Positions 5,534 through 44,438 of a DNA stretch of 64,000 nucleotides are shown in pieces. The notes below the pieces were generated by a model. That model ran no database searches. It was given only the letters and a program-made list of their open reading frames with translations, and had not been told where the DNA came from. The position numbers and the translations under genes were made by a program. The first letter of the stretch is position 1. Each line of letters opens with the position of its first letter. Source of the stretch: Hyphomicrobium sp. CS1BSMeth3 (GTDB taxonomy: Bacteria; Pseudomonadota; Alphaproteobacteria; Rhizobiales; Hyphomicrobiaceae); NCBI RefSeq assembly GCF_900117415.1, contig NZ_FPEI01000005.1, forward strand, positions 1,116,001 through 1,180,000, given 5' to 3'.

Positions 5534-7237
5534 ATGACCATCGTCGGCTGGATTCAGATCGTCGCCTTTTGCGCTCTCGTCGTTGCGCTCGCGAAACCGC
5601 TCGGCGGCTACATGACGCGCGTCTTCACTGGTGAGAGAACCTTCCTGTCGCCCGTCCTGCGGCCGCTCGAGACCGGCCTTTACGCACTGGCCGGCATCGA
5701 CGCCAAGCGCGAACAGCATTGGCTCACCTATGGCATCGCCATGCTGCTCTTCAATGCAATCGGCTTTCTCAGCCTTTACGTGCTGCTGCGCCTTCAGGCC
5801 GGCCTGCCGCTCAATCCGGCGGGCCAGTCGGCCGTGGCGCCCGATCTCGCCTTCAACACCGCCGTGAGCTTCGTCACCAATACCAACTGGCAGAACTACG
5901 GTGGCGAGACGACGATGTCCTATCTCTCGCAGATGCTCGGAATGACCGTGCAGAATTTCGCCTCGGCGGCGACAGGGATCGTGCTGGCGGTCGCGCTCAT
6001 CCGCGGCTTCTCGCGTGTGTCGGCGGCGACGGTCGGCAATTTCTGGGTCGACCTGACCCGCTGTACGCTCTACGTCCTGCTGCCGATCTGCATAGTCCTC
6101 ACGCTGTTCTTGGTCTGGCAGGGCGTTCCGCAGACGCTCGGTGCATATGTCGATGCAGCGACCCTCGAGGGGGCCACGCAGACCATCGCCGTCGGGCCTG
6201 CGGCCTCGCAGATCGCAATAAAGATGCTCGGCACCAACGGCGGCGGCTTCTTCAATGCCAATGCGGCCCATCCGTTCGAGAACCCGACCGCATTGTCGAA
6301 CTTCGTGCAGATGCTGTCCATTTTCGCTATCGGCGCTGCGCTCACCAACGTGTTCGGCCGCATGGTCGGCAACCAGCGCCAGGGCTGGGCGATCCTCGCC
6401 GTCATGGGCGTGCTGTTCATCGCCGGCGTCACCGTCGCCTACTGGGCGGAAGCGCACGGCAATGATGCCTTTTCGGCGCTTGGTCTCACTGGCGGCAACA
6501 TGGAGGGCAAGGAGGTCCGCTTCGGCATCGTCGCCTCCGCGCTCTTTGCGGTTGTGACGACGGCAGCGTCGTGTGGCGCCGTCAATGCCATGCACGACAG
6601 CTTCACGGCCCTCGGCGGCATGATCCCGCTCATCAATATGCAGCTCGGCGAGGTCATCGTCGGCGGTGTCGGCGCCGGCCTCTACGGGATGCTGCTGTTC
6701 GTCGTCATCGCCATTTTCGTCGCCGGCCTGATGGTCGGGCGCACGCCGGAGTACGTCGGCAAAAAGATCGAAGCCAAAGAGGTGAAGATGGCCATGCTCG
6801 CCATCCTGATCCTGCCGCTGATGTATCTCGGCTGGACGGCGGCTGCTGTCGTCATTCCCTCGGCCGCCGCCTCGATGGCCAATCCCGGACCGCACGGCTT
6901 CTCCGAGGTGCTCTATGCCTATACCTCGCAGACCGCCAACAACGGATCGGCTTTCGCCGGCCTCACCGGCAACACGCTCTGGTACAACACGACCGGTGCC
7001 ATCGCCATGCTGGTCGGCCGCTTCCTGATGATTGTTCCGGCGCTGGCGATCGCCGGATCTCTGGCGGCAAAGAAAAGTGTGCCGCCCTCCTCGGGAACCT
7101 TCCCGACCACCGGCGCTCTGTTCGTCGGCCTCGTCGTCGGCGTGATCCTGATCGTCGGCGGCCTCACCTTCTTCCCAGCCCTCGCGCTCGGCCCCATCGT
7201 CGAGCATCTGGCCATGCGCGCCGGGACGGCATTCTGA
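5534..7237 (+). CDS. kdpA: KdpA, potassium-translocating subunit of the Kdp ATPase
   Basis: A 567-residue integral membrane protein of the SKT channel superfamily. It carries the K+ selectivity filters and translocates K+ while KdpB hydrolyses ATP. Visible family blocks include [18 protein letters not shown], the loop around [32 protein letters not shown] and [11 protein letters not shown], corresponding to the pore-loop repeats. Length is normal for the family. It is the third ORF of the kdp operon and is followed after 22 bases by kdpB. Confidence 0.97.
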
Positions 7238-7259
7238 GAGAACCACTCGGAGTCACTGC

Positions 7260-9374
7260 ATGCAGACCTCCACCATGCTCCGTAAGGCGACCCCCACCAC
7301 GGCTCTCCTCGATGCGCGGATCATCCTGCCGGCGATCCGATCGGCCTTCGTCAAGCTCGATCCTCGGGTGCAGATACGGAACCCGGTGATGTTCGTGCTC
7401 GAGGTCGTCTCGATTCTGACCGCCATCGTCCTGATCCGGGACCTGGTGATCGGCGGCCAGAATGTCGGCTTCACGTTCCAGATCGTCCTGTGGCTCTGGT
7501 TCACGCTGCTGTTCGCGAACTTCGCAGAAGCCGTGGCTGAAGGGCGCGGCAAGGCGCAGGCCGATACGCTGCGCCGCCAGCGCACGGAGACGCAGGCCAA
7601 GCGACTGCGGAATGAAAGCAAGCGGCAGTACGAGCTGGTTTCGGGCACCGACCTCGAAGTTGGTGACATCGTGCTCGTTGAAGCCGGCGACCTCATTCCG
7701 TCGGACGGCGAGGTGATCGAAGGTGTGGCTTCGGTCAACGAGGCCGCGATCACCGGCGAGTCGGCTCCCGTCATTCGCGAGTCCGGCGGCGACCGCTCGG
7801 CCGTCACGGGTGGCACGCAGGTGCTCTCGGATTGGATTGTCGTGCGCATCACGGCGGCGCCCGGATCGACGTTTCTCGATCGGATGATCAGGCTCGTCGA
7901 GGGAGCCGAGCGTCAGAAGACGCCCAACGAGATCGCGCTGAACATTCTTCTGGTCGGTTTGACGATCATTTTCGTCATCGCCACTGCCACCATTCCGAGC
8001 TACGTGAACTATGCCGGCGGCACTGTCTCGCTAGTCGTGCTGGCGGCTTTGTTCGTGACGCTCATTCCGACCACCATCGGCGCACTGCTCTCGGCCATCG
8101 GCATTGCCGGCATGGATCGTCTCGTCCGGTTCAACGTGCTTGCCATGTCGGGCCGGGCTGTCGAGGCTGCTGGCGACGTCGATACGCTGCTGCTCGACAA
8201 GACCGGCACGATTACGCTCGGCAATCGTCAGGCGACCGAGTTCAAGCCTCTGCGCGGCGTGAGCGAGCAGGATCTTGCCGATGCGGCGCAGCTTGCCTCG
8301 CTCGCCGATGAGACGCCGGAAGGGCGCTCCATCGTCGTGCTGGCCAAGGAGAAGTACGGTATCCGCGGGCGCGACGTGAGCGAGCTCAGCGCGCGGTTCA
8401 TACCATTCTCAGCGCAGACGCGGATGAGCGGCGTCGTGCTCGGCACGACCTCGATCCGTAAGGGCGCCGTCGACGCGATCCTCGGCTATCTCAATGGCGG
8501 ATCGGGGCGCGGGCATGGGGACGTCCAGGTCGCCACCAAGCCTCTGGTCAGCGCCGAGACCGCGCGCGAGATTCGCGCTATGGCCGACGATGTCGCCAAA
8601 TCCGGCGGCACGCCGCTTGCCGTCGCGCGCGATGGCCGCTTGCTCGGCATCATCCACCTCAAGGATATCGTCAAGGGTGGGATCCGCGAGCGCTTCGCCG
8701 AGCTGAGGCGGATGGGCATTCGCACGATCATGATCACCGGCGACAACCCTACGACGGCGGCGGCGATCGCGGCGGAGGCCGGGGTCGACGACTTCCTCGC
8801 CCAGGCCACGCCCGAAGACAAGCTCAGGCTCATTCGTGCCGAGCAGGAAAAGGGAAAGCTGGTCGCCATGTGTGGCGACGGCACGAACGATGCCCCCGCT
8901 CTTGCGCAGGCCGATGTCGGCGTCGCCATGAACACCGGCACGCAGGCGGCCCGCGAGGCCGGCAACATGATCGACCTGGATTCCAACCCGACCAAGCTGA
9001 TCGAGGTGGTCGAGATCGGCAAGCAGCTCCTGATGACGCGCGGCGCGCTCACTACCTTCTCGATCGCCAACGACGTCGCGAAGTACTTCGCCATCATCCC
9101 CGCAATGTTCGTGGTGTTCTATCCGCAGCTTCAGGCGCTCAACATCATGAACCTGACGACGCCGCAGAGTGCGATCCTGTCGGCCATCATCTTCAACGCG
9201 CTGATCATCATTGCGTTGATCCCGCTGGCACTGAAGGGTGTTGCTTTCCGCCCGATCGGCGCCGGTCCGCTGCTGCGGCGCAATTTGCTGATCTACGGCC
9301 TCGGCGGGATCCTCATCCCGTTCGTTGGCATCAAGGCGATCGACGTGGTCGTCACGACCCTGCATCTCGTCTGA
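7260..9374 (+). CDS. kdpB: KdpB, catalytic P-type ATPase subunit of the Kdp system
   Basis: A 704-residue P1A-type ATPase that energises high-affinity K+ uptake. It shows the actuator motif TGESAPV, the phosphorylation motif DKTGT with the aspartate at residue 313, the nucleotide-binding KGAVDAI and the hinge [12 protein letters not shown]. Membrane helices flank these domains. No truncation or missing residue is apparent. It depends on KdpA, KdpC and KdpF for assembly in the inner membrane. Confidence 0.97.
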
Positions 9375-41775: not shown

Positions 41776-42131
41776 CGGCCTACATGGCTCCCATTGCATG
41801 AAAAAGCCCGGCACCTGGAACGGCCGACGGGCGATGCCGCCGACTTTATGCCGAACCGCAGGGGGGTTCAAACCGCTGCTGTCGCACGGCCGCATCAGCA
41901 ACGTGCATGGATGAGCTGGACTGGTTTCTGAGCAGTGGTGATGCACCCCTTCTGAGATAAGATGAATGCTCGAGGGTAGCGGCACACCGCGCGCGTGCCG
42001 TGAGAGTGGGGCGTTCGCCATCAGGCGGGCGGAATTCTTCTGGCAGTTTCGCATTCCGCTTCTTGCCGAGCTGGCTGTCGCGAGCGATGGCGGCGCGGCC
42101 GCGGATGGCGTCGTTAAAAGTGAGTGGCGAC
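41776..42131. other. Divergent promoter region, no gene seen
   Basis: A 356-base region between the ThDP enzyme and the channel-fusion gene. Frames extending both genes into it are open, but they lack the conserved N-termini, and no ribosome sites support them. No operator or hairpin is clear. Confidence 0.35.
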
Positions 42132-44438
42132 ATGAGCGTGGCTGCTGACGGCATTGGATTGCGTGCCGCATGGCCGTCGGGGGTGTGGTGGCATCGGGCC
42201 CTGGTGGCGTTCGCGGCCGTCCTTTGGGTGGTCGGCTCTACGCTTCCAGCGGCGGCCATCAAAGAGGCGGAAGCCGCGCAAGGCCCGCCATATAATGTCG
42301 CGCTGCTCGTGAGCGCGCCGCGCGATGATCTCTGCCACGACCCTGGTGATATCGCCGCGATCCGTCGGCTGGCGGCGGACGAGCAGGCGCGCATCAACCA
42401 ACGGGGCGGGATTGCCGGCAGACCCATAGCGATCAGGATCTTCGACGACGGCCGCGATGATGCGAAGGCCATCGCCAACATGCGCGCCGTTCTTGCTGAC
42501 CGCAACATGATCGGCATGATCGGGCTCGGCAACGCGAGCCGGGCCAAGGCAGTGTTCGACGCGCTCGGCGAGGACATCCGGCGCAGCAACATACCGTTCC
42601 TTTCGGATATCGCCGTCAGCAGCATCTTCGCGGGCCACCCGAACGTCTTCACGACGCGCGCCTCGCAGGACGAGGAGCGGGCGCCCGTTATGGCCGCCTT
42701 CACGCGCAGCATGGGCTTCAAGCGGCCCGCTTTCATTGGCGCGTCGGGCATGGTCTCCAGCGAGGCGCTGCGCGAGAGTCTCGTCGATCTCATCGGCGAA
42801 GCCAATCTGAGTGGCGATCATCGAATGCGTCTCACCGACGGCAAACCTGACGCTAGAGAACTGGCCGCCGTCGTTGCCGATCTCGCTCAGCGTCAGCCTG
42901 ATGTGATCTATCTCGCCGTCGGCTCGCGGGCCGGCGGTGAGGTCATGTCTGCGCTAAAGACGGCCGGGGTGACGCCGGCAATATTCATTAGCGGGCGCAT
43001 CGACGCGCTCCCGCCAGCCGTCGCGATGTCCTATCCAAGCCCGCTCTATCAGATCTCATGGGACAACCTGCCGGAGCTCTACAACGGCCGCCTGCGCAAG
43101 CTCGCCGTGCTGGCACCTTCCAATCCCTGGATCTTCGAGGGGCGCAAGAACGCGCGCGCGCCCGGCTGGGCTAAGGGCGAATGCCAGGAGCGGGCCGAGA
43201 CCCGCGGTATACGCGATCCCTTTGAAGCGGCGAACATGCGCGCCATTGCGACCGGTGCGCGCTACGCGGACATGATGGCGCTCATCGCCGACGTTTTGCG
43301 AACAGCCGATCGCAGTGCCGACATCGAGACGCTGCGCGCAGCCGCCGTGTCGCGCATCACGTCGGCCTACGCGGCCGGCCGCGGTGCCTTCAGGGGGACG
43401 TTCGAGAACTGGTCTTTCGATCCGACCACGCGTACGGCCACGCGCACGCCTTTCATCATCATTCTGCCGCGCGGTCTTGGCCGTTTGCAGCTCGCGCCCA
43501 TCCAGTTCCGCCGCGCGCGCGACGGTACGTTCCGGCGCGTCGAGACGCTTTATATGGACATCGATCTCGTCAAGGCGCATCGCGTCGACGACAATGAGAA
43601 GGCCTACTTCGCGGAGTTCTATCTATCGCTCCACGCCAATCCTACGATCGACATCGGTGAGATCGAGTTCGCCAACGCCTACATCGATCCGCGCACCCAT
43701 GGGCGCCAGCTCACGATCGAGCCCCTCCACGGCGGCGCCAGCGACCGCATCTATCCCGCTTCGATGAAAGTCTACAAGGTTGTCGGGCGCTTCCTGTTCG
43801 AGCCTCGTCTCGAGACCTTCCCTTTCGACACGCAGAGCTTCTCCATCGAGGTCCAACCGCGGCGCAGCGATGCCGCATTCATCGTTCAGCCACCTCCCGT
43901 TTCGTTGCGCGACGCACGCGTGATCACCGAAAGCTGGACGCCCATGGTGCACTATGTGGGCTATGACGAGGACTTCGTTCCTGTCGTCGACTCCTTCACC
44001 CATGAGGCAAGCGTCGCGCCCTTCTACAAGGCGAGCTTCGTGTGGCAGATGCGGCGCGAGACGACCGACTATTTCCTCCGCGTGGTCGTGCCATTGGGCT
44101 TCATTCTCGGCATCGCCTATCTTTCGATCTTCATTCCCATGGCGCGCTTCGACTCGATCGTGGCCATCCAGGTGACCGCCCTCCTGTCGGCAGTCGCGCT
44201 CTACATCTCCCTGCCTAAGCTCGACTCGGATACGGCGACACTGTCGGATCGCATTTTCGTCTTCGACTACATGATGGTGAGCCTCATGATCGCGATCACG
44301 GTCTTGAGGATCAATCCATTCGTCGCCAGCCGCCGGTGGCTGGTCAGCGTGCTCGAGTTCATGCACGTAGCCGTCGTGCCGGCCCTTGTGGTGGTCGCGG
44401 CGTACTATGCCTACGGCATGAGCATTGCCGCTCAGTAG
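42132..44438 (+). CDS. Periplasmic binding domain fused to a pentameric ligand-gated ion channel
   Basis: A 768-residue protein. A signal/anchor helix (about residues 22-42) precedes a Leu/Ile/Val-type periplasmic binding domain of roughly 400 residues (VALLVSAPRDDLCHDPGD, INQRGGIAGRPIAI, MIGMIGLGNASRAKAV). From about residue 465 the sequence is a Cys-loop-type channel. Its extracellular domain has FPFDTQSFSIEV, the bacterial counterpart of the Cys-loop. Four helices follow from about residue 645 (TDYFLRVVVPLGFILGIAYL). My hand alignment of M2 with GLIC puts Asp674 at -2', Thr at 6' and Leu at 9', suggesting a cation-selective pore with a leucine gate. The large binding domain may be the ligand sensor. 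No pore motif is missing. Confidence 0.88.
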   Translation: MSVAADGIGLRAAWPSGVWWHRALVAFAAVLWVVGSTLPAAAIKEAEAAQGPPYNVALLVSAPRDDLCHDPGDIAAIRRLAADEQARINQRGGIAGRPIAIRIFDDGRDDAKAIANMRAVLADRNMIGMIGLGNASRAKAVFDALGEDIRRSNIPFLSDIAVSSIFAGHPNVFTTRASQDEERAPVMAAFTRSMGFKRPAFIGASGMVSSEALRESLVDLIGEANLSGDHRMRLTDGKPDARELAAVVADLAQRQPDVIYLAVGSRAGGEVMSALKTAGVTPAIFISGRIDALPPAVAMSYPSPLYQISWDNLPELYNGRLRKLAVLAPSNPWIFEGRKNARAPGWAKGECQERAETRGIRDPFEAANMRAIATGARYADMMALIADVLRTADRSADIETLRAAAVSRITSAYAAGRGAFRGTFENWSFDPTTRTATRTPFIIILPRGLGRLQLAPIQFRRARDGTFRRVETLYMDIDLVKAHRVDDNEKAYFAEFYLSLHANPTIDIGEIEFANAYIDPRTHGRQLTIEPLHGGASDRIYPASMKVYKVVGRFLFEPRLETFPFDTQSFSIEVQPRRSDAAFIVQPPPVSLRDARVITESWTPMVHYVGYDEDFVPVVDSFTHEASVAPFYKASFVWQMRRETTDYFLRVVVPLGFILGIAYLSIFIPMARFDSIVAIQVTALLSAVALYISLPKLDSDTATLSDRIFVFDYMMVSLMIAITVLRINPFVASRRWLVSVLEFMHVAVVPALVVVAAYYAYGMSIAAQ

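Follow-up and report, generated by a model that had tools for sequence, protein, structure and literature searches.

Introduction

Fusions of an N-terminal type-1 periplasmic binding domain (PBP-I) to prokaryotic pentameric channels (ART-LGICs) were described for Bradyrhizobium japonicum and Magnetospirillum magnetotacticum in the available sections of Tasneem et al. (2005, PMC549065). According to the passages seen of Jaiteh et al. (2016, PMC4795631), the associated domains of prokaryotic channels are known at the genome level only and, as of 2016, every channel of the family in unicellular organisms was without a known biological role. DeCLIC is, in the excerpted text of two papers (PMC9897478, PMC12664993), the sole such channel with an added N-terminal domain to have been partly characterised. 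Its N-terminal domain comprises two jelly-roll lobes and does not have the binding-protein fold; it influences gating kinetics and, in that text, is not reported as an agonist sensor (PMC9897478, PMC12664993). Animal ionotropic glutamate receptors work alike, with a clamshell stacked on a ligand-gated pore; the parallel, which the original prediction had drawn, stands for their amino-terminal type-1 domain and fails for the glutamate-binding type-2 domain, as far as the available part of PMC549065 describes them. The pore family of these receptors is different, and while their PBP-I domain is amino-terminal it is a PBP-II domain that carries the channel.

Here we describe a gene of Hyphomicrobium sp. 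CS1BSMeth3 that lies in a window of 64,000 nucleotides, from whose first letter all positions for this gene are counted. The gene encodes an N-terminal PBP-I domain and a channel in one protein, the kind outlined by Tasneem et al.; by their description the domain order is like that of our protein and the hosts are also alphaproteobacteria (PMC549065, in part). The statement in the original prediction that such channels had been associated with binding proteins is thus borne out in print (available text of PMC549065). So is its remark that few such fusions have been studied, going by the accessible parts of the literature on added domains (PMC4795631) and on DeCLIC (PMC12664993, PMC9897478).

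Results and discussion

The fusion gene spans 42132..44438 on the forward strand (768 aa plus stop) within a frame, 42000-44438 (+), that holds no internal stop. A start at ATG 42132 is favoured by comparison with the relative L001, where only four codons, one of them TTG, separate the equivalent ATG from a preceding in-frame stop. A likely signal peptide (42132..42257, +) was read by eye as a hydrophobic stretch ending in TLPAAA, and a hydropathy peak is found at residues 25-43. A promoter scan found nothing. The N-terminal half is a type-1 periplasmic binding domain (42291..43514, +), as had been proposed: the Peripla_BP_6 profile of Pfam matches it above cut-off (E 6.4e-18) and also matches 32/32 rows of our family alignment (A1) at E 0.1 or better, and the fold is recovered by Foldseek. 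The alignment includes L044, the second copy of genome G023, and excludes L019 (unread residues), L011, L017 and L043 (partial), same-locus duplicates and the weak match L028.

No Pfam channel family matched the C-terminal half of the window protein or of any of the 32 rows. The NCBIfam LIC profile gave an insignificant E of 0.4 for the window C-terminal half and phmmer aligned it with the alpha7 nAChR at E 0.0026. A search of the organism's own genome with Neur_chan_LBD gave no match, and neither did its controls. A channel-half profile (A3) built from 26 of the 32 family rows matched DeCLIC (6v4a) at E 1.7e-9, an ELIC-GLIC chimera at E 3.8e-8 and GLIC at E about 1e-6, the last over profile positions 5-292 of 303. 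These matches to DeCLIC and GLIC uphold the channel identity originally assigned to this half. DeCLIC, among the best profile matches, carries an added N-terminal domain as does the window protein. GLIC can be aligned with this half over almost its full length and shares its fold; it has no binding domain.

An AlphaFold2 model of residues 48-768 as a single chain (mean pLDDT 87.1, pTM 0.81) is mixed alpha/beta in its N-terminal half; a middle part made of beta strands only follows, and the chain finishes with four long helices. Searching with this model, Foldseek returned 3hut as the best binding-protein match (E 2.8e-16) and GLIC 3eam at E 2.8e-14 (TM 0.69 by target). The extracellular beta domain of the channel was placed at 43530..44057 (+) by profile alignment and model. 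Hydropathy and model place M1 at 44064..44132, M3 at 44241..44312 and M4 at 44334..44429, with the M2 pore helix at 44139..44210 (all + strand, ends approximate); the four hydropathy-peak regions agree with the four channel helices of the model. The beta domain contains the predicted FPFDTQ motif of the Pro-loop (residues 563-568) and, before M1, Arg642. All 32 rows keep D566, R642 and the proline of M1 unchanged; in mature numbering the invariant residues are P517, F518, D519, R595 and P607. The positions of the Pro-loop acid and pre-M1 arginine are called apparently universal in the available text of Tasneem et al. (2005, PMC549065), and their invariance here suggests that the gating parts are kept. 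One channel feature that is common and not defining has not been kept: its position is I, V, M or T in 32/32 rows, and GLIC likewise lacks it. The fusion of binding domain and channel is confirmed as an observation: a single ORF, with both halves significant, encodes the one-piece protein that had been proposed. From sequence and model, a type-1 binding domain is joined directly to a complete channel subunit.

The M2 helix aligns with GLIC without gaps and gives the register originally read by hand, Asp at -2' (residue 674), Thr at 6' (682) and Leu at 9' (685). The acidic residue at -2' is Glu in 28/32 rows, Asp in 3/32 (the window protein and its two nearest relatives) and Asn in 1/32. Position 2' is Thr (21/32), Ala (9/32) or Gly (2/32), Thr 6', Leu 9' and Ala 13' each occur in 32/32 rows, and a basic residue at 0' occurs in none of the 32. 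The family consensus is identical to GLIC at -2', -1', 1' and 2', the window protein itself having Asp at -2' and Ala at 2'. At 11', both the window protein and the family consensus have Ala in place of the histidine of GLIC. With its acidic -2' ring and no basic residue at 0', the pore is predicted to be of a GLIC-like cation type, an assignment to be read with the statement, in the portion of Jaiteh et al. (2016, PMC4795631) available, that M2 motifs are no general predictor of selectivity in prokaryotes. Both selectivities are expected among prokaryotic channels in the sections at hand of Tasneem et al. (2005, PMC549065).

The binding domain shares its fold and N-lobe sequence with LivJ/LivK-type binding proteins (3hut, 4mpt, 3lop, 2liv), which are free proteins feeding ABC transporters. 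Its Cys68 (42333..42335, +) and Cys351 (43182..43184, +) occupy the same columns in 27/32 rows and are both missing in 3/32; in two further rows the pair is present by eye with the second cysteine shifted, giving 29/32 altogether. As the two cysteines are present or absent together, they likely form a disulphide. Pocket positions were placed via HMM alignments and not by superposition. We take Thr102 and Ser79 of LivJ to be the Ser/Thr pair that holds the alpha-amino acid in the leucine-binding site. The Thr102 position is Thr in only 1/32 rows and Val in 25/32; that of Ser79 is Ser in 26/32 rows and Ala in the window protein, which thus lacks the alpha-amino-acid-type pair. The column of window residue 161 is Ser in 28/32 rows but Ala in the window protein, and Arg137 is kept in 30/32. 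The pocket threonine of the LivJ/LivK-type proteins is therefore lost in 31/32 members, which makes the label "amino-acid-type" first given to this domain doubtful. Judged from these columns, the ligand is probably something other than a standard alpha-amino acid held as in leucine-binding protein.

A search of 60 genomes of relatives (the window's own included) gave matches in 31, of which 24 have the two-part gene and seven have weak binding-protein matches only. Within the taxonomic family of the organism, which contributes 36 genomes to this set, the two-part gene is present in 21. Among 397 genomes of the order, 20 matched at E 1e-20 or better. In combination, 35 Hyphomicrobiales genomes have the two-part gene and 33 of these, from many genera, have both parts in one frame, some of the genes being cut at contig ends. 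The two draft relatives in which the gene is in pieces (G001 and G003) are the only ground for suspecting that an assembly or annotation artefact has fused a binding-protein gene with a channel gene; there is none for the window itself. The recurrence of the same fusion in other genomes refutes a frameshift or assembly join at about 43400-43540, which the original prediction had named as the case that would undo it, and we consider the chance of an artefact negligible. G023, G019 and G035 each hold the fusion gene twice; in G035 the extra copy (C136:1397-2731) has four in-frame stops in the part encoding the binding domain. Across the class the channel profile matched 2/385 genomes, window included, and no match to the window-family fusion was found among 72,556 plasmid records.

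Trees of the binding domain and of the channel (32 rows) have 20/29 splits in common, with a distance correlation of 0.90; among those listed, conflicts with support above 0.9 on both sides occur around L033 and L039 only. It therefore appears that the two halves have mostly travelled together. Comparisons with two relatives gave these dN/dS ranges: binding domain 0.087-0.108, beta domain 0.049-0.053, helices 0.057-0.064. Identity to the window protein ranges over 26-85% for the binding domain and 36-92% for the channel, the binding domain diverging faster.

The neighbourhood survey covered 35 loci, window included; the gene was located in 33 and several loci end at contig ends. Outside the genus no neighbour recurs in more than 5/35 loci (best 40 ORF groups, own and overlapping frames set aside). 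At five such loci a group that by eye resembles an RND pump lies 3-8 kb from the gene. Inside the genus the divergent and convergent neighbours recur, which is little informative; the neighbours within the window were read by eye. An attempt to infer the ligand from the gene neighbourhood failed, no neighbour group extending beyond 5/35 loci. With no widely recurring neighbour, the fusion gene is probably self-contained, needing no fixed partner gene.

The channel profile, run over 388 genomes of the phylum, had matches in 25, and 22 of these belong to other classes. Four frames read from among the 22 (L101, L103, L105 and L106) have Peripla_BP_6 above cut-off (E 6e-22 to 5e-45) and match the family channel profile at E 6e-24 to 7e-20. 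By eye, all four binding domains have the [ST]ATN pocket motif, unlike the window family; in three the pattern before M2 is anion-like (A/P-S-R), -2' being A/P and 0' being R, and L101 has E at -2'. A more distant PBP-I/channel fusion of 746 aa, L081 (G699, 6125-8365, -), has A-A-K preceding M2 (by eye); hhalign relates it to the window family at 7e-9, and no match to its channel was found on plasmids. At L083 (5922-8343, +) a pentameric channel without a fused domain is encoded beside an NMT1-like binding-protein gene, an arrangement that resembles the PBP-II neighbourhoods of prokaryotic channels described in the available text of Tasneem et al. (2005, PMC549065). In a tree of binding domains, from which row C_L104 was left out, those of the window family and the other fused ones form two clades, with a long branch to the window-family clade. 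A single clade of all fused binding domains is not rejected (AU p 0.46, same row left out), and the idea of two separate origins of the fusion was dropped.

In four alphaproteobacterial proteins (L089, L090, L095 and L096) one ORF encodes a PBP-I domain, a channel-type beta domain and then an MscS pore. By hhalign the middle domain matches other channels at E 6e-12 and the window family at 2e-6; four unrelated domain pairs, run as controls, gave 0.18-0.84. In a related ORF, L097 (4016-7084; plasmid pAB510b of Azospirillum sp. B510, AZL_RS21910), Peripla_BP_6 and the beta domain of MscS both match above cut-off. These five ORFs encode about 1020-1190 aa. By eye, the PFD motif of the Pro-loop is lost in L089, L090, L095 and L096, and L089 has a cyclic-nucleotide domain too. 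Among plasmids, L090 is covered to 80% or more in nine records, every one from Azospirillum; L097 is the one of these that was inspected. In other alphaproteobacteria the channel's input stack thus appears, from sequence, to have been placed on another pore, which fits a portable input module.

The organism's own assembly (99.76% complete) contains two flagellins above cut-off and, counting the window gene, 25 Peripla_BP_6 places. CheW was not found in this genome (7/14 controls positive), and for the MCP signal domain the search gave nothing above cut-off and one weak match with an internal stop (7/14 controls positive). Among eight relatives, CheW was found in 0/4 with the fusion versus 3/4 without it; counting the window's own genome, 0/5 versus 3/4 gives p about 0.05 by hand calculation for genomes that were hand-picked and relatives that are not independent. 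An association of the fusion with absence of CheW is suggestive only. PBP-capped channels were proposed as chemotaxis receptors in the text available of Tasneem et al. (2005, PMC549065). If a classical chemosensory system was meant, the CheW/MCP picture sits ill with that idea, at a suggestive level only, and would, as tentatively, leave room for a direct effect of the current on motility. As a broader proposal, which we regard as rather unlikely, the fusions could be solute-gated cation channels for flagellated Hyphomicrobiales without classical chemosensing, in which a solute other than a standard amino acid would act through the PBP-I clamshell to give an ion current in place of MCP/CheW signalling, a related binding-protein and beta-domain input serving MscS elsewhere.

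Taken together, we favour, with somewhat better than even confidence, a homopentameric, periplasm-facing, ligand-gated cation receptor channel of the inner membrane. The subunit would be exported and five subunits would assemble; a small solute would close the binding clamshells, and the closure would move the beta domain and open the cation pore. The open pore could give a brief depolarisation of the cell, or entry of cations, and our leading guess is that the ion flux would act directly on motility or transport.

Gating could instead reside in the channel's own beta domain, responding to protons, amines or divalents, with the binding domain merely tuning the channel or gathering ligand for it. 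DeCLIC, which is calcium-sensitive and whose N-terminal domain alters kinetics, is a precedent (available parts of PMC9897478, PMC12664993), and the available text of Tasneem et al. (PMC549065) proposes that the PBP domain may enrich or detect a ligand whose binding then takes place on the domain of the channel proper. The faster divergence of the binding domain would agree with this. That domain is nonetheless clearly constrained by its dN/dS. The M2 11' histidine of GLIC has a role in proton gating, and with Ala at this position in both window protein and consensus, proton gating by the 11' route is unlikely. We regard gating at the beta domain as possible, though on the unlikely side. Faster divergence is likewise consistent with a cap that is relaxed and in part structural, and some glutamate-receptor amino-terminal domains are structural or partner-binding caps. 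A binding domain that no longer binds solute would account for a leucine-site Thr in 1/32 rows, the Ala at the Ser position in the window protein and the long branch to the window-family clade; it fits poorly with the retention of the cleft columns (Ser at 161 in 28/32, albeit Ala in the window protein, and Arg137 in 30/32) and with a binding-domain dN/dS of 0.09-0.11, and we judge it quite improbable. The solute-gated receptor channel remains our preferred reading.

Conclusions

Functional work on PBP-capped channels or on PBP-MscS fusions was absent from the matches listed in the open-licence PMC literature. This kind of protein has been known since 2005, is apparently unstudied functionally and is well placed for testing. 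As the fusion itself points to the likely sensor, the ligand could be sought with the soluble protein ahead of electrophysiology. Because Pfam does not detect the channel half, genes of this kind probably carry a transporter-binding-protein label and go unnoticed; the MscS cousin from Azospirillum sp. B510, whose annotation reads ABC transporter substrate-binding protein, is a case of such mislabelling.
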